Below are positions 53,338 through 62,324 of a stretch of DNA of 64,000 nt, piece by piece (the first letter of the stretch is position 1; each line of letters begins with the position of its first letter). The position numbers were made by a program, and so were the translations under genes. Origin of the DNA: Rubrobacter taiwanensis (GTDB lineage: Bacteria; Actinomycetota; Rubrobacteria; Rubrobacterales; Rubrobacteraceae). The notes under the pieces are model-generated. The model searched no databases and was not told the origin of the DNA. It saw only the letters and a program-made list of their open reading frames with translations. The DNA lies in the NCBI RefSeq assembly GCF_004337705.1, contig NZ_SKBU01000015.1, positions 78,852-142,851 of the forward strand, read 5' to 3'.

Positions 53338-53365
53338 TTGACAACTCGAACACCCCGCATGTAAG
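53338..53365 (+). promoter_or_regulatory. Candidate promoter of the ABC importer operon
   Basis: TTGACA (53338-53343), 16 bases, TGTAAG (53360-53365). The -35 is perfect but the -10 is weak. The intergenic stretch is AT-richer than its surroundings. A second TTGACA at 53380-53385 has no matching -10. Confidence 0.35.
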
Positions 53366-53420
53366 CTGTTCGCATGTTATTGACATTGGATCTCATTACT
53401 AACAATCGGAGGTTGCGGAG

Positions 53421-55028
53421 GTGTTGAGGTCTGGTGGTCTTCTGGGGGTGGGGGTTGCGCTACTGATATTCGCCTTCGGTTGTGGAGGAGGTTCTGGGGA
53501 GGCGGACCGGCTTACGATCGCTGTACCTCAGGACGTTGGTCCGCTCAACATCTTCGCTCAGCACGAGGAGCCGCTGACGGAGCTGGTCTATGACAAGCTG
53601 TTAGCGCCGTCACCTTATGTGGAGGAGCCGCGGCCATGGCTGGCGGAGAGTGTGGAGCGGATAGATCCCGAGACGTGGGAGGTTACCGTCAGAGACGGGA
53701 TCACCTGGCACGATGGAGAGCCGTTCGCGGCCGGGGACGTAAAGTTCACCTTTGAGTATTTCCTTGAAGCTCCGACCGGGCGTTGGACGCATCACATCAG
53801 CGAGGTTCCGCACGTCGAGGAGGTTGAGATAGTAGATGAGAACACGCTGCGGCTCTCGTGCGCCTACCCGTGTCCGGAGTTGGGGCCGGTGACGCTGGCG
53901 GATCTGCCGATCCTGCCCCAGCACATCTGGGAGGATGTGCCTGGGGATCGGGCGGCGACCTATAACGAGTTGCCGGTCGGAACCGGACCGTACAGGCTGG
54001 TCGAGTACAGCGCCGAGCGGGGATACCGATTTGAGGCCAACGAGGACTACTTCGCGGGCAGGCCGCTTGTGGACGAGCTGGTGATGCCGATCATCGAGGA
54101 TACAGCGGCGACCTTCACGGCGCTCAGATCCGGCGAGCTCGACGCCGCCGCGCGCAACGTTCCACCGGAGCTGGTCCCGGAGTTCGAGAGCTCGCGGGCC
54201 ATAGCGCTGGCCGAGACCGCCCCGCTGCAATTCGATGAGATAAGGATCAACTACGAGCGCGAGCCCTTCGACATACCGGAGTTCCGACAGGCATTCTCTT
54301 TGGCGGTCGATCGCCGGGAGCTTCTGGACACGGTCTTGCTCGGACAGGGACGTCCCGGTACGCAGGGGTATCCACACCCTGACTCTCCCTGGACCAGTCC
54401 AGACAACCGGCAGCCATACGATCCGGAGCGTGCCCGGCAGATACTCGATGGTCTAGGGTTCGTTGACCGCGACGGCGACGGCGTACGCGAGACGCCGGAC
54501 GGGAATCCCTTGGAGTTCACCATCAAGGTCGCCGGGACCGAACCCTCGCAGGTACGCGCCGCCGAACTGGTAGTGAAGCAGCTCGGCGAGGCCGGCATCT
54601 CCATGACGGTTCAGACCCTGGATCCCGGCGCCATGGGAGAGCTCTTCACCTCGCGCGACTTTGACACCAGCCTGGGCACGATCACGGCTCACGGCGTGGC
54701 CGATCCCACCCAATTCATCATGTCCCACCGTTCGGGATACCTCTGGAACCTGCCAGAGGTTCCATATCCCGAGATGGAAGCCCTGATCGAGGAGTGGATG
54801 CAAGCCACGACCGTAGAGGAGCGTACCCGCATCTCCTTCGAGATGCAGGAGCTTTTCAATAGTCAGCCTACATCCATCGTCCTGTACTACCCCGAAGAGC
54901 GGTGGGCCTACCGTCCCGACGCCCACGACGGCTGGGTGGAGTCGCCGGGCTACGGCATCGTGCACAAATGGTCGTTCCTGCCCGAGGAGGTCGGCAATGA
55001 AGCCAACGCGATCACCGAGCGGTTCTAG
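53421..55028 (+). CDS. Peptide-type ABC transporter substrate-binding lipoprotein
   Basis: 535 residues of the SBP family 5 (Dpp/Opp/Nik type). The signal peptide GVGVALLIFAFGC ends in a lipobox cysteine. Family landmarks: WLAESVERIDPETWEVTVRDGITWHDGEPFAAGDVKFTFEY, LPVGTGPYRLVEY and FRQAFSLAVDRRELLDTVLLG. The GTG start has GGAGG eight bases upstream. First gene of a five-gene importer operon on the plus strand. Ligand unknown. Confidence 0.94.
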   Translation: MLRSGGLLGVGVALLIFAFGCGGGSGEADRLTIAVPQDVGPLNIFAQHEEPLTELVYDKLLAPSPYVEEPRPWLAESVERIDPETWEVTVRDGITWHDGEPFAAGDVKFTFEYFLEAPTGRWTHHISEVPHVEEVEIVDENTLRLSCAYPCPELGPVTLADLPILPQHIWEDVPGDRAATYNELPVGTGPYRLVEYSAERGYRFEANEDYFAGRPLVDELVMPIIEDTAATFTALRSGELDAAARNVPPELVPEFESSRAIALAETAPLQFDEIRINYEREPFDIPEFRQAFSLAVDRRELLDTVLLGQGRPGTQGYPHPDSPWTSPDNRQPYDPERARQILDGLGFVDRDGDGVRETPDGNPLEFTIKVAGTEPSQVRAAELVVKQLGEAGISMTVQTLDPGAMGELFTSRDFDTSLGTITAHGVADPTQFIMSHRSGYLWNLPEVPYPEMEALIEEWMQATTVEERTRISFEMQELFNSQPTSIVLYYPEERWAYRPDAHDGWVESPGYGIVHKWSFLPEEVGNEANAITERF

Positions 55029-55665
55029 TTCGCCGAGCAAGTCCGCCCGCATCGCAATGCTCGACACCGGGCTCGGCACGATGCCCCATATGAAATACGA
55101 CTTCATCCGTGAGAGAGTCGAGTCTCTCGACATGTACGAACTACCGGAGGCAGAACTGAGCCCCTATGTCGCCCTCATGATCACGGGCAATGTGGACCAG
55201 GAATTGCTGTATCGGGAGCGGAAGAGGATCCAGGACTTCCTCGACTCCGGGAAAGTCCTCGTCTTCAGCGGCCACCTCTCGCGTGAGTGGCTGCCCGGAG
55301 CCGGAACATTCGTGCCGAAGGAGATCCGCTCCTTCCAAGACTACGAGATCCACAAAGCCAAGGACCACCCTATCTTCGAGGGCGTGGAGACAAAAGACCT
55401 CACCTTCCGCCGCGGTGTCGCAGGCTTCTTCGCCCGCGGGCACAACCCGCCGCCCGAAGGAGTCGAGGTGATCCTCACGCTCCCCGGCGGGGAGCCGGTG
55501 GTCTACGTGGACCGGCGGAGCACCCGGGGTGTCATCTTCGTCTCCGCCTGTTACGACCTTCTCGGTTTCGGACTCGACAGGCTATACAGCGACGACGCCC
55601 CGGAGACCACGGCGAGCCTCATCGCGCCGCAGCTTCTGGCCTGGATCGAGAAGGAGACCTCATGA
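54997..55665 (+). CDS. ThuA/GATase1-like protein, paralogue 1
   Basis: 222 residues, cytoplasmic, predicted alpha-beta fold. It shows ALMITGNVDQELLYRERKRIQDFLDSGKVLVFSGHLSREWLPG, then PVVYVDRRSTRGVIFVSACYDLLGFG. These resemble a ThuA/class I amidotransferase-like fold (a flat fold with a strand-turn after VLVFSG) but no catalytic cysteine is at the elbow. The ATG overlaps the 3' end of the substrate-binding gene by 32 bases and has GAGGAGG upstream. Its paralogue follows immediately. Function unknown. Confidence 0.7.
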   Translation: MKPTRSPSGSSSPSKSARIAMLDTGLGTMPHMKYDFIRERVESLDMYELPEAELSPYVALMITGNVDQELLYRERKRIQDFLDSGKVLVFSGHLSREWLPGAGTFVPKEIRSFQDYEIHKAKDHPIFEGVETKDLTFRRGVAGFFARGHNPPPEGVEVILTLPGGEPVVYVDRRSTRGVIFVSACYDLLGFGLDRLYSDDAPETTASLIAPQLLAWIEKETS

Positions 55666-56273
55666 AGAAGCTCGCCGCCGTCTACGGCGGCTCCGCCCCA
55701 CACCACCGCGCCCTCAACGAGCCCAAGTACCGCCGCTGGCTCTCCGGGCTCATCTACCTGCCCGACCTTCCCGGAGCCGACCTCGACGGCTTCGACGGCC
55801 TTCTCATCCCCGAACGCCTCCACAGAGGCAAGCTCGACGAAGCGGCGGGCTCCGTGCTCGCTTACCTGGACCGCGGCGGCACCGTGCTCGTCTTCAGCGG
55901 CGGGGAGCATCCTCCGGTGTGGCTACCCGGACTCAAATGGGAGCACCGCCCCACAAACTTCTGGTGGTGGCTGGAGCCGGGTGCAGACCTCGGCTTAGTC
56001 TGCCACAACCCGGACCACAGCCTCTTCGGCTACATCGAACTCGACGACGCCACCTGGCACTACCACGGCCTGCTACACCCACCAGAAGGAGCGGAGACCC
56101 TCATCGCTCTGCGAGACGAGGGCGCGCTGCTCTACATAGACCGGGTCAGTACGCCCGGCACGCTGCTCGTCACCACCCTGGACCCGCTGTACCACTTCGG
56201 CTCTTACTTCATGCCCGCAACCGAACGCTTCCTGGACGGGTTCTTGCCGTGGGTGGTCAGAGAGTTGCTGTGA
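55662..56273 (+). CDS. ThuA/GATase1-like protein, paralogue 2
   Basis: 203 residues, related to the preceding protein: GTVLVFSGGEHPPVWLPG corresponds to KVLVFSGHLSREWLPG, and LLYIDRVSTPGTLLVTTLDPLYHFG to VVYVDRRSTRGVIFVSACYDLLGFG. The start overlaps the first paralogue's stop (ATGA at 55662-55665), so the two are coupled and may form a heterodimer. A tryptophan- and histidine-rich middle (PTNFWWWLEPG, DATWHYHGLLHPPEG) is distinctive. Its job in an importer operon is unknown. Confidence 0.7.
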   Translation: MKKLAAVYGGSAPHHRALNEPKYRRWLSGLIYLPDLPGADLDGFDGLLIPERLHRGKLDEAAGSVLAYLDRGGTVLVFSGGEHPPVWLPGLKWEHRPTNFWWWLEPGADLGLVCHNPDHSLFGYIELDDATWHYHGLLHPPEGAETLIALRDEGALLYIDRVSTPGTLLVTTLDPLYHFGSYFMPATERFLDGFLPWVVRELL

Positions 56274-56295: not shown

Positions 56296-57279
56296 GTGCC
56301 TCCGGGAAGATTAGGAAACCGAATAGGACAGTACGTCCTCGTCCTCTGGGTTGCGCTGACGCTCAACTTCCTCCTGACCCGCGTGGCCCCCGGAGACCCC
56401 ATAAATTACCTCCTCGGCGACGAGGTCAACGCGCTCACGCCGGAGCAGAGGGAGCAGGTGTTGAGCCAGTACGGCCTCGATGAGCCCTTGCTCGTGCAGT
56501 ACGGCATGTACTGGGTGAACGTGGCCCGGTTCGAGCTCGGCACCTCGGTCCGGTTCGGGCAGCCGGTAGCCGACGTGCTCATAGACCGCCTGCCGTGGAC
56601 GCTGCTCCTGGTAGGCTGCGCGACGGTACTCAGCACCTTCATCGGTATCACGGCCGGCACCATAGCCGCCTGGAAGCGCGGCAGTGCCCGCGACACGGGC
56701 CTGATGGTGGGCATCCTCTCTCTGGAGGCCATGCCGGGGTTCTGGATCGGGATGATCCTGATCTCCGTCTTCTCGGTCACCCTCGGGCTGTTCCCGACGT
56801 ACGGCGCCGTCTCGCTCGTGAGTCTCGACGGGCTGGCGCACGTGTGGGACGTCGCCCGCCACCTGGTCCTGCCCGTCATCGCCATCACGCTGGCGACCAG
56901 CGGTAGCGTCTTCCTGCTCTCCCGGGCCTCCATGCTCACGACGCTGGGCGAGGACTACACGACCATGGCCGAGGCCAAAGGCGTCAGCGAGCGCGGCGTC
57001 GTCTTCCGCCACGCCCTGCGCAACGCGCTTTTGCCCGTCTACACCAACTTCACGCTGAGCCTGGGTACGCTGGTCAGCGGCGCGGTCGTCATAGAGACCG
57101 TCTTCGCCTACCCGGGGCTGGGACGGCTCATCTACGAGGGTGTGCTCGCCCGGGACTACCCCCTGCTGCAGGGGGCCTTCCTCCTGGTCACGGTGGGCGT
57201 GATCTCCGCCAACCTCCTGGCGGACCTCACCTACCCGTTGCTGGACCCCAGAGTGCGCCGGCCGGGAGCGAACCGGTGA
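56296..57279 (+). CDS. ABC transporter permease (DppB/OppB type)
   Basis: 327 residues with six predicted helices. N-terminal LWVALTLNFLLTRVAPGDPINYLLG and the EAA loop GVSERGVVFRHALRNALLPV are diagnostic of the DppB branch, as is FAYPGLGRLIYEGVLARDYPLLQG. GTG start 22 bases after the second ThuA-like gene. It pairs with the permease domain fused to the ATPases encoded next, overlapping by a GTGA junction. Confidence 0.93.
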   Translation: MPPGRLGNRIGQYVLVLWVALTLNFLLTRVAPGDPINYLLGDEVNALTPEQREQVLSQYGLDEPLLVQYGMYWVNVARFELGTSVRFGQPVADVLIDRLPWTLLLVGCATVLSTFIGITAGTIAAWKRGSARDTGLMVGILSLEAMPGFWIGMILISVFSVTLGLFPTYGAVSLVSLDGLAHVWDVARHLVLPVIAITLATSGSVFLLSRASMLTTLGEDYTTMAEAKGVSERGVVFRHALRNALLPVYTNFTLSLGTLVSGAVVIETVFAYPGLGRLIYEGVLARDYPLLQGAFLLVTVGVISANLLADLTYPLLDPRVRRPGANR

Positions 57280-59741
57280 AGCAGTCCGGAGCAACGCCCG
57301 GCTCGTGGATCCCGGACCGGCGCAGGATACCTGCTCTGGGCGTGGTCGGGCTCGGGATAATAGGGTTCTTCACGCTCGTGGCCGTACTCGCGCCGCTTCT
57401 CGCCCCCTACGACCCCAGCGCCCGGGTAGCGCCGCCCTTCGCCGCGCCGAGCCTCGCCCACCCGCTCGGGGCTAACGACGTCGGGAACGATCTCTTGAGC
57501 AGCCTCATCTTCGGCACCCGCATCTCGCTCGTCGTGGGCGTCGCGGCAGCGGTAGCCGCGACCGTTATCGGCACCGCGGTCGGACTGGCCTCCGGGTACT
57601 TCGGCGGCGTAACAGACGCGGTGCTGATGAGGTTGGTGGATGTCGCGCTATCCCTGCCCTTCCTGCCCCTCATGATCGTGATAGGAGTCTTCCTCGGACC
57701 GGGGCTCTCGACGGAGATCATCGTGATCTCCAGCGTCATCTGGGCCGGAGCGGCCAGGGAGTTGCGCTCCCAGGTGCTCTCGGTCAGCCAGCGGGACCAC
57801 GTCCGGGCCGCCCGGGCGATGGGTGCGGGAGGGACCTACATACTCCGCCGCCACCTCCTGCCGGCGGTCTTCCCGCTCGTGATCCCCCAGTTCGTCCGCG
57901 CCGCGAATATAGCTATCCTGCTTGAGGCTTCCCTGAGCTTTCTGGGCCTCGGGGACCCCATCAAGCAGAGCTGGGGCACGATCCTCTTCTACGCCAACGC
58001 CCGCAGCGCCTTTCTTACGGACGCCTGGATCTGGTGGGTCGTCCCGCCCGGGCTCTGTATCGCCCTCGCGGTCCTGTCCTTTGCTTTTATAGGCTTCGCT
58101 CTGGAGGAGCGCACCCGGCCCCGGTTGCACGCGCTCGCCCCTGCTCAGGTACGCCGCAGCCTCCCGGCCCAAGGTCCGCGCCGGGGAGACTGCCTGCTCG
58201 AGATCGAAGCCCTCACAATAGAGTACGGAGAGCGGCGGGCCGTAGACGGGGCAAGCCTGAAGCTGCCCCGGGGACGTACGCTCGGCGTCGTGGGGGCTTC
58301 GGGTAGCGGCAAGAGCACGCTGGTCTTTGCGGTCATGGGCCTGCTGCGGGCCCCGGCACGTATCACTTCGGGCCGAGTCTTGCTCGCCGGGGAAGATCTG
58401 CTGGGAGCCCCGGAGAAGCGGCTGCGCGAGCTGCGCGGCGACCGGGTGGCGCTCGTCCCGCAGACAGCGATGAACGCGCTCAACCCCATCCTCCCCGTCG
58501 CGAACCAGATCGCCGAGGCCATCCGGCTCCACCGCCCGGTGAGCCGTAAGACCGCCCGCGAGCGGGCGCTAGAGATGCTGGAGGCGGTCGGCATCCCGCG
58601 CGCGCGGGCCGGAAGTTACCCGCACGAATTCTCGGGCGGCATGCGCCAGCGCGCCGTCATCGCAATGGCGCTGGCCAACGAGCCCGACCTGTTGGTCGTG
58701 GACGAGCCCACCACAGGCCTCGACCCCCGCATACAGGGCGAGATCCTCCGACTCCTCAAACGCCTCCAGAGAGAGATGAACCTCGCCATCCTCCTCATCT
58801 CCCACGATTTGCCGGTAGTGAGCCGCACGGTGGACACTCTGGCGGTGATGCAAGAGGGCAGGATAGTCGAGGCGGGACCGGCGGATGAGATCCTCTCCCG
58901 CCCCCAACACCCGTACACCCGCCGTCTCTTGCAGGCCGCCCGGCCTGAGCGCCTCCGCCCCCCACTCACCTCTACCGACAGGACACCGCTGCTCCGGCTC
59001 GAAGGCGTCTCCAAAGCCTACCGGAACGCCATTGCAGCCGACAGAATAAGCTTCGAGGTCCGGGAAGGAGAAGTAGTGGGCCTCATAGGAGAGAGCGGGG
59101 CCGGCAAGAGCACCCTGGCCTGCATGATCCTGGGCCTCGAACGCCCGGATGCAGGACAGATACGGTTCGAAAACCGAGTTCTCAACGACCTCTCCCGGCG
59201 CGAGCTGCGAGCCGCGCGCAAGCGCCTGCACCTGGTCTTCCAGGATCCCTACCAGTCGCTGCCCGAACACCTGCGGGTGCGTGAGATAGTATCCGAACCC
59301 CTGCGCATCCACGGCGAGCCAAAGGTCGAAGACCGGATGCAACAAGCTCTGAGAGAGGTGGACCTGGACCCCGCTCGCTACGCCGAACGCTACCCTTCAG
59401 AGCTCTCCGGCGGCGAGCGCCAGCGCGTGGCCCTCGCCCGCGCCGGGGTGCTGCAGCCACGCCTCGTCGTGCTGGATGAGCCCACCTCCATGCTCGACGC
59501 CGGGCTGCGCAAAGATCTGCTAGAGTCGCTGGAGCGCCTCAAAGAAGACCTTGGAGTCTCCTACCTGTGCATCACGCATGACCTGCTCCTCGCCCGCGCC
59601 TTCTGCGACCGGCTGGTGGTGCTGCGCCGGGGACGGGTTGTGGAGCGCGGCCCGGTGGAGTCGGTTATCCGGAAGCCGAAAGAACCCTACACCCGGCAGC
59701 TCGTGCGTGCCGGGCTGCCGGAAGAGAACCGCGCTACGTAA
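57276..59741 (+). CDS. Fused DppC-type permease and two ABC ATPases
   Basis: 821 residues with three parts. Residues about 1-290: DppC-type permease with six helices and EAA loop AMGAGGTYILRRHLLPAV. Residues about 305-555: DppD-like ATPase (Walker A GASGSGKST, signature FSGGMRQRAVIA, Walker B LLVVDEPTTG). Residues about 570-815: DppF-like ATPase (GESGAGKST, LSGGERQRVALA, LVVLDEPTSM). Normally these are three separate genes. Together with the first permease they would form a complete importer with only two membrane polypeptides. Confidence 0.92.
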   Translation: MKQSGATPGSWIPDRRRIPALGVVGLGIIGFFTLVAVLAPLLAPYDPSARVAPPFAAPSLAHPLGANDVGNDLLSSLIFGTRISLVVGVAAAVAATVIGTAVGLASGYFGGVTDAVLMRLVDVALSLPFLPLMIVIGVFLGPGLSTEIIVISSVIWAGAARELRSQVLSVSQRDHVRAARAMGAGGTYILRRHLLPAVFPLVIPQFVRAANIAILLEASLSFLGLGDPIKQSWGTILFYANARSAFLTDAWIWWVVPPGLCIALAVLSFAFIGFALEERTRPRLHALAPAQVRRSLPAQGPRRGDCLLEIEALTIEYGERRAVDGASLKLPRGRTLGVVGASGSGKSTLVFAVMGLLRAPARITSGRVLLAGEDLLGAPEKRLRELRGDRVALVPQTAMNALNPILPVANQIAEAIRLHRPVSRKTARERALEMLEAVGIPRARAGSYPHEFSGGMRQRAVIAMALANEPDLLVVDEPTTGLDPRIQGEILRLLKRLQREMNLAILLISHDLPVVSRTVDTLAVMQEGRIVEAGPADEILSRPQHPYTRRLLQAARPERLRPPLTSTDRTPLLRLEGVSKAYRNAIAADRISFEVREGEVVGLIGESGAGKSTLACMILGLERPDAGQIRFENRVLNDLSRRELRAARKRLHLVFQDPYQSLPEHLRVREIVSEPLRIHGEPKVEDRMQQALREVDLDPARYAERYPSELSGGERQRVALARAGVLQPRLVVLDEPTSMLDAGLRKDLLESLERLKEDLGVSYLCITHDLLLARAFCDRLVVLRRGRVVERGPVESVIRKPKEPYTRQLVRAGLPEENRAT

Positions 59742-61697: not shown

Positions 61698-62324
61698 CGG
61701 ACACTCCCAACTGTTTCCAGAAGGGCCGGACTTTATCTTAGCTGGCCTCGATTCACCTGCGCGGCGAGGCGTCGAATCTCTTCAACACCCTCCGCTGTCA
61801 GATGATCGCCCGCCTCCATCATCAACAGGATGCGGCGGAACTTTTGAAATTCCACGCGCTTCCTGGACTTCAGCGGGTGCTTAACGAAGAATGGAACGAT
61901 GTGCCGGAGCAGATGCTCCTTACCCCTCACGCGGTAGGCCATCCGGTCACCGTGGTCCTTGCGAACCACGCCGCAACCGAAGTAAGCCTTCAGCGCGTAC
62001 AGAAGCTGCACATCGCGCTCGTGCCGCACGACAGTGAATTCAGGCAGAACCTGATATCCGGCGCTCATCTCGGGATGCTCGTTGATCCCGACGAAGAAGC
62101 AACCTTCACCATCCACGAAGCCTGTTATCCACCCTGCGTCAAGCTTCATCGGCCAACCCCGAACGTAAAGTCTCTGAGGGTTCCCGCTGCAGCTGCGGGC
62201 CTTCCCTGCGGATTGTCCATGTATCCGCCGGATTTTTACTGCCGATATAAGTATACCGGCTAGTACCGGACGGCTTTAGGAGTTCCCCGCATATGGTTCG
62301 GTTTTACTAAGGCTAGCGTTACTA
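61698..62324 (-). other. Group I intron in 23S rRNA after position U1931 (E. coli numbering)
   Basis: 627 bases interrupt the rRNA between CCTAAGGT and AGCGAAATT. P1 can be read: the exon CTAAGGT pairs with the intron GCCTTAG, with the splice-site U opposite G. P7 strands are CAGAGACT (about 62169-62176) and AAGATAAAGTCC (61729-61740), matching conserved group I elements R and S. The last intron base is G (61698). The position corresponds to L1931, known as an intron site in Thermotoga; that is from memory. Confidence 0.93.
61733..62149 (-). CDS. LAGLIDADG homing endonuclease of the 23S intron
   Basis: 138 residues with one LAGLIDADG motif (WITGFVDGEGCFF, residues 7-19) and a beta-strand region (LPEFTVVRHERDVQLL), so it should act as a homodimer. 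It occupies the loop between the two P7 strands (P8 region). Its TAA stop is part of the P7 3' strand. It is expected to cut intronless 23S genes at the L1931 site and promote intron spread. Confidence 0.93.
   Translation of the reverse strand: MKLDAGWITGFVDGEGCFFVGINEHPEMSAGYQVLPEFTVVRHERDVQLLYALKAYFGCGVVRKDHGDRMAYRVRGKEHLLRHIVPFFVKHPLKSRKRVEFQKFRRILLMMEAGDHLTAEGVEEIRRLAAQVNRGQLR

Follow-up and report, generated by a model that had tools for sequence, protein, structure and literature searches.

A paralogous protein pair of predicted amidotransferase-like fold that accompanies ABC importers and, in its relatives, iron-regulator boxes

The operon and its two paralogues

The window analyzed here, a stretch of 64,000 nucleotides from Rubrobacter taiwanensis (contig NZ_SKBU01000015.1), harbors an ATP-binding cassette (ABC) importer operon in which two adjacent genes, designated A and B, lie between the gene for a solute-binding protein and the permease genes. 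This placement, proposed in an earlier note made from the sequence alone, is supported by the gene order obtained with Pfam: binding protein, A, B, OppB, and a single chain combining OppC, OppD and OppF, all on the forward strand. The binding protein (53421–55028) belongs to the SBP_bac_5 family (PF00496, E 6e-78), starts with GTG and, as read from the sequence, has a lipoprotein-type N-terminus (IFAFGC). Gene A (54997–55665; 222 residues) starts at an ATG preceded by GAGGAGG and overlaps the binding-protein gene by 32 nucleotides, while its stop codon shares a four-base ATGA (55662–55665) with the start of B (55662–56273; 203 residues), confirming a translational overlap indicative of coupling. 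An OppB/NikB-type permease follows (56296–57279; PF00528, E 4.9e-40; best NCBIfam model Opp2B), and the final chain of 821 residues (57276–59741) comprises a permease (PF00528 at residues 99–283) and two ABC ATPases (ABC_tran twice). With an SBP_bac_5 protein, two permeases and two ATPases, the operon has the composition of an Opp/Dpp/Nik ABC importer. Inspection of A and B revealed no signal peptide, whereas the binding protein starts in lipoprotein fashion, and both A and B are therefore expected to be cytosolic.

Judged by their sequences, A and B are paralogues with a similarity beyond chance, as BLASTP aligns them with 29% identity over 154 residues (E 1e-10) and profile-profile comparison gives 99.8% probability (E 9.9e-30). 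Two of the motifs previously listed as shared, VLVFSG and WLPG, are indeed common to both proteins; the third, given as YVDR.ST.G, reads YVDRRSTRG in A and YIDRVSTPG in B and is corrected to Y[VI]DRxSTxG. Beyond these blocks the two alignments are markedly asymmetric. Protein B carries W132-H133-x-H135-G136 (56055–56069), invariant in the B alignment and found as WHxHG in 104 of 105 B and none of 105 A sequences, and, near the C-terminus, D174-P175-x-x-H178-x-G180 (56181–56201), with D[PA]xxHxG present in all 105 B and again in no A sequence. Near-invariant in A are D67-Q68 (55195–55200; DQ in 102/105) and R147-G148 (55435–55440), which closes a GFFxRG block (residues 143–148; 100/105) and sits at approximately the position of H135-G136 in B. 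The HPE triad residues of class I glutamine amidotransferases (GATases) are located near the C-terminus, and the D[PA]xxHxG region of B may correspond to this site. No conserved cysteine occurs among the invariant or nearly invariant columns of either alignment. This distribution leads us to infer that His, Asp and Trp residues of B, the likely active or ligand-binding subunit, form a site for binding or catalysis, with A as a degenerate partner. Reports of in-frame TGA codons in actinobacterial A genes proved, in those checked, to reflect an ordinary stop codon.

No Pfam or NCBIfam model matched window A or B above threshold, and a Pfam scan of 75 A and 76 B relatives returned only scattered weak matches, several of them in families of GATase fold (DUF4159, DUF4350, ThuA and GH42M). 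Information on the fold came from a natural A-B fusion at an actinobacterial locus (L014), modeled with a 97-sequence alignment (predicted local distance difference test 90.6; predicted template modeling score 0.75), for which the best Foldseek matches in the PDB were GH42 beta-galactosidases, PabA-like GATases, GATase1-like proteins and IFT52-N. The model confidently points to two class I GATase-like domains, one per protein.

The designation of A and B as ThuA-like therefore stands for the fold class and fails for the family: the ThuA profile (PF06283) matches neither window protein, hhalign gives 7.2% for A and 0.5% for B, only 3 of 76 B members match weakly (best E 0.028), and the window's own genome contains no ThuA match. 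ThuA also differs in its family invariants, nor is it known to occur in obligate pairs linked to ABC importers. PabA/GuaA-type class I GATases are alike in fold (target-normalized template modeling score of ~0.6 for the PabA-like match), but A-B has neither a synthase partner nor a conserved counterpart to the nucleophilic Cys of the Cys-His-Glu triad, and assignment as a class I GATase on the basis of that triad is not supported. Membership in GH42, whose enzymes are the top Foldseek matches of the fusion, was likewise tested and not adopted; profile comparison with the GH42 trimerisation domain (PF08532) reached 45% for B, yet A-B is not attached to a glycosidase and the His motifs of B belong to the A-B pair. 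DUF4159 weakly matches 6 of 75 A and DUF4350 weakly matches 4 of 76 B sequences, with E-values no better than 0.0037, and at that level these two uncharacterized families are not the same family as A or B. None of the profile searches placed either protein in a well characterized enzyme family unrelated to transport, the outcome named beforehand as contrary to the transport-linked interpretation. Consistent with the earlier note's view that no such system has been described, the searched libraries give A and B no family name, and a literature search covering open-licence papers only turned up no account of the pair, so that one may exist elsewhere.

Pairing and importer partners

To establish how far A and B depend on each other and on the importer, we analyzed their relatives in genome databases. 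Scanning genome contigs with one protein as the query yielded no relatives, and no A-B pair was present in 59 nearby genomes. In contrast, when GTDB contigs were scanned strictly with a profile of B, 280 relatives were recovered, of which 80 were kept, and eight further loci were found using A as the query; the pair thus occurs in hundreds of genomes, including soil, plant and skin-associated genera. Among the relatives are Paenibacillus, Lysinibacillus, Staphylococcus, Pseudonocardia, Solirubrobacteraceae, Dehalococcoidia, Pseudomonas and Halopenitus, and the pair is conserved across Bacillota, Actinomycetota, Chloroflexota, Proteobacteria and haloarchaea. At every locus holding the pair (104 pairs) A and B are neighbors on one strand, with A immediately ahead of B, and natural fusions were observed nine times in the order A-B and once, in L006, in the reverse order B-A. 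Because a scan anchored on B is biased, the A and B profiles were also run separately against 251 genomes from a single actinobacterial family; 38 of these contain A and 39 contain B, and the one genome with B alone has just a 50-residue fragment of it. The pairwise distances of A and B also correlate (r 0.88). This combination of co-occurrence, adjacency and fusion is characteristic of two subunits that obligately function as one unit. Constant adjacency and natural fusion further make a strong case for a heterodimer, as previously suggested, and the separate chains of A and B probably associate in this way.

Some loci hold more than one pair. Pairs of different subtypes stand back to back in divergent orientation at eight loci (L065, L066, L069, L076, L080, L081, L082 and L086), mostly each with its own Fur box and with one subtype joined to a FecBCD importer, and one Paenibacillus locus (L021, 8135–13196) contains three A-B pairs and two Opp-type importers.

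The link to importers is general, while the type of importer is not. Within 6.5 kb of the 104 pairs, an Opp/Nik-type importer was found at 46 and a FecBCD-type importer likewise at 46, a Natribaculum pair lies inside an Fbp-type operon, and a Chelatococcus pair lies beside an SsuA-type importer; in the actinobacterial family, all 20 fetched loci have an importer gene near the pair. On a quick tree of B, with support assessed solely by the Shimodaira-Hasegawa-like approximate likelihood-ratio test, a minimum of 8 changes is needed for each of the Opp and Fec labels, with well-supported branches forcing 5 of these, and 9 changes are needed when all four importer types are considered together. 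Such repeated switching would be expected if the pair serves a cargo that these importers share, and not if its function depends on one transporter architecture. In three Gram-negative loci a TonB receptor is also near the pair, with the order TonB receptor, FecB, FecC, FecE, A, B in L085 and further receptors in L083 and L093.

The fusion of OppC and two ATPases into one chain, as in the window, recurs in L008, L077 and L087, and many Bacillota loci encode a long ATPase-containing chain (~500–590 residues) together with a separate ATPase, which suggests an OppC-OppD fusion. Permease-ATPase fusions of this kind appear to be a hallmark of the Opp-type importers found with A-B.

A third protein, C, of ~170 residues occurs in ~34 loci of the first set, mostly adjoining the pair, and in most of the 20 actinobacterial loci. 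Seven of 20 C sequences matched FmdE (PF02663) weakly, at E up to 0.01, the best scoring 24.2 bits against a cut-off of 22.9, which points to a distant FmdE relative that differs in having its own GPGxRDxxE block. Most genes of the FmdE family are reported to adjoin those for metal-ion transporters (PMC2954224).

Iron-regulator boxes

We examined the upstream regions of these operons for a Fur box, defined as the 7-1-7 consensus TGATAATNATTATCA with at most 2 mismatches, using shuffles of two-base blocks as a control; operons were delimited by a simple rule based on open reading frames, which may have misplaced some of the upstream regions, chiefly in genomes of high GC content. In Bacillota, 61 of 73 operons are preceded by a Fur box, 21 of them perfect, compared with a mean of 0.62 and a maximum of 2 in the shuffles, and such boxes are present in all 21 genus-level groups sampled. 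Among the remaining upstream regions at these loci, the box was found in 34 of 480. Consensus sites for Zur, PerR, MntR, NikR, CcpA, CsoR and LysR gave a poorer match than Fur or were near the shuffle level, and no riboswitches were found in 14 loci.

Actinomycetota use IdeR/DtxR, and IdeR-type boxes with at most 4 mismatches were found in 6 of 20 independent actinobacterial loci and nowhere in 196 kb of shuffled sequence. Locus L012 has two such boxes, 3 mismatches each, just ahead of the first gene, and boxes with 3–4 mismatches lie at the corresponding place in L120, L133, L134 (two), L136, L138 and L139. For the family as a whole, the regulatory association with iron is well supported.

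Since the same kind of pair also accompanies importers of the FecBCD, Fbp and SsuA types, in most cases downstream of a Fur/IdeR-type box, the common factor is taken to be iron acquisition and not peptide uptake. The earlier note's description of a peptide-type ABC operon holds for the window, in that its importer is of Opp/Nik type, whereas peptide transport as the defining partnership does not survive the comparison of neighborhoods. For the window's own copy, a role in iron handling is suggested by analogy with these relatives. Its genome encodes one DtxR-family protein, and the promoter region of the operon contains an inverted repeat, TCGAACA-N14-TGTTCGC (53346–53373, forward strand), that is a possible operator.

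A candidate role in iron release and its alternatives

Taken together, we regard it as fairly probable that A and B form a cytosolic heterodimer of GATase-like fold that processes ferric chelates, with release of the iron, in conjunction with ABC importers. Iron starvation would relieve repression by Fur or IdeR, as predicted for the relatives, and the binding protein and permease would then import an iron complex. In the cytoplasm the A-B dimer, often together with the FmdE-like C, would bind this complex and process the chelate so that iron is set free. The working pocket would be provided by B through an aromatic stretch (NFWWW) together with WHxHG and D[PA]xxHxG, while A, which does not have those pocket residues, may serve as a structural or regulatory partner supplying the DQ and RG positions. 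In importer types, Fur/IdeR-type control and the TonB receptors of some Gram-negative members, these operons resemble the FecBCD, FhuBCD, HmuTUV and Dpp-type heme operons, but we know of no ferric siderophore or heme ABC operon with a conserved GATase-fold pair and an FmdE-like protein. To our knowledge, only a few enzyme folds remove iron from imported chelates inside the cell, and the known cytosolic iron-release steps (esterases, reductases and heme oxygenases) have other folds. A bolder version, which we put forward tentatively, is that A-B(-C) constitutes an undescribed, phylum-crossing machine for iron release in the cytosol, a heterodimeric enzyme of GATase fold in which the His/Asp/Trp site of B dismantles imported ferric chelates and which has been recruited repeatedly to unrelated ABC importers. 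The consistent regulatory signature of a family without a name gives the question some weight: if the proposal is correct, it would add a new iron-handling activity and many importers annotated as 'oligopeptide' or 'nickel' would be reassigned to iron.

Several observations weigh against a function in iron release. Upstream of the window operon, no Fur box (best match 5 mismatches) and no IdeR box within 6 mismatches was found, and a search of its genome for protein C was negative. Fur boxes are also present in the 34 control regions mentioned above, several of which lie ahead of adjacent LysR genes. The structures matched by the SBP_bac_5 proteins are those of oligopeptide-, nickel- and sugar-binding proteins, none of them iron-specific, and the FecB-type protein is also similar to HI_1472 of H. 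influenzae, known to bind molybdate. Finally, A-B could bind or sense its ligand instead of processing it.

The most specific alternative is a heme version of the same idea, in which heme is imported, bound by the Trp/His-rich pocket of B, and handed on or opened by A-B. FecCD-type permeases import heme in the HmuTUV/IsdEF systems, and a DyP-peroxidase-like gene lies upstream of the pair in Halopenitus. The TonB receptors of the three Gram-negative loci score best with heme receptor models, and one of them has PhuR as its closest match in the PDB, but the scores (219–238 bits) miss the cut-off of 316.85, a catecholate receptor matches nearly equally well (PhuR 95 bits, colicin I receptor 92 bits), and inspection of the receptors identified the FRAP motif with no His in the loop that follows. 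The double-length FecC permeases (~700 residues) of L004 and L083 moreover recall the hydroxamate permease FhuB. Although Dpp-type permeases are heme importers in E. coli and M. tuberculosis (PMC6751184), we consider a dedicated heme unit unlikely. Somewhat less credible to us is a non-enzymatic heterodimeric sensor or regulator of the imported compound, which the earlier note had offered alongside a processing enzyme and which we retain solely as a rival. It would account for the divergence of A and for the absence of assigned catalytic residues of a known enzyme, and the LysR regulators in many operons indicate that ligand sensing matters at these loci; however, neither A nor B has a recognizable DNA-binding or signaling domain, and the strict conservation of the His/Asp/Trp motifs of B across phyla looks like an active or metal site.

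Two further explanations appear improbable. A-B might bind to the importer as an accessory subunit and control transport, in the manner of the GATase-fold domains of GldG-type ABC systems, given that it is nearly always near an importer and that IFT52-N, a relative of the GldG domain, is among its structural matches. A conserved docking surface is, however, hard to reconcile with switching among partners of unrelated architectures, and no match to PF09822 was found among the A and B members. Least probable in our estimation is an operon for peptides, nickel or molybdate in which the iron boxes of the relatives are incidental to the window's copy. The NikA/Opp-type binding protein, the HI_1472-like FecB proteins, the missing iron box in the window and the metal-linked FmdE-like partner (PMC2954224) are all compatible with it, but the boxes agree more closely with the Fur consensus than with those of Zur, PerR or NikR and are spread over 21 genus-level groups, and IdeR-type boxes are found independently in Actinomycetota.

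Other genes near the pairs also merit mention. About ten pairs are accompanied by a cassette of an FtsE-like ATPase, an FtsX-like permease and two secreted proteins (L079, 10612–13941; L027, 10603–14215; also L021, L024, L029, L067, L078 and L090). The predicted mature N-terminus of the secreted proteins is His (A|HLTGAF, A|HIxNE), a possible N-terminal-His metal site, and one has a His-rich stretch and a membrane anchor. On Agrobacterium and Labrenzia plasmids, a C-like protein and a FecBCD-type importer lie directly ahead of the carbon-phosphorus lyase genes phnGH(I) (L010, 12851–14408; L007, 11289–12830). In Halopenitus (L077, 1620–3960), genes for DUF7405 (DyP-peroxidase-like) and DUF7350 (weakly Fe2+-transport-like) directly precede the importer and the pair. 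Within the window, a nucleotidyltransferase-domain protein (PF01909; 59734–60474, reverse strand) is convergent with the operon, and an open reading frame of 138 residues (61733–62149, reverse strand), beginning MKLDAGWITGFVDGEGCFFVGI, has the look of a LAGLIDADG-type homing endonuclease.
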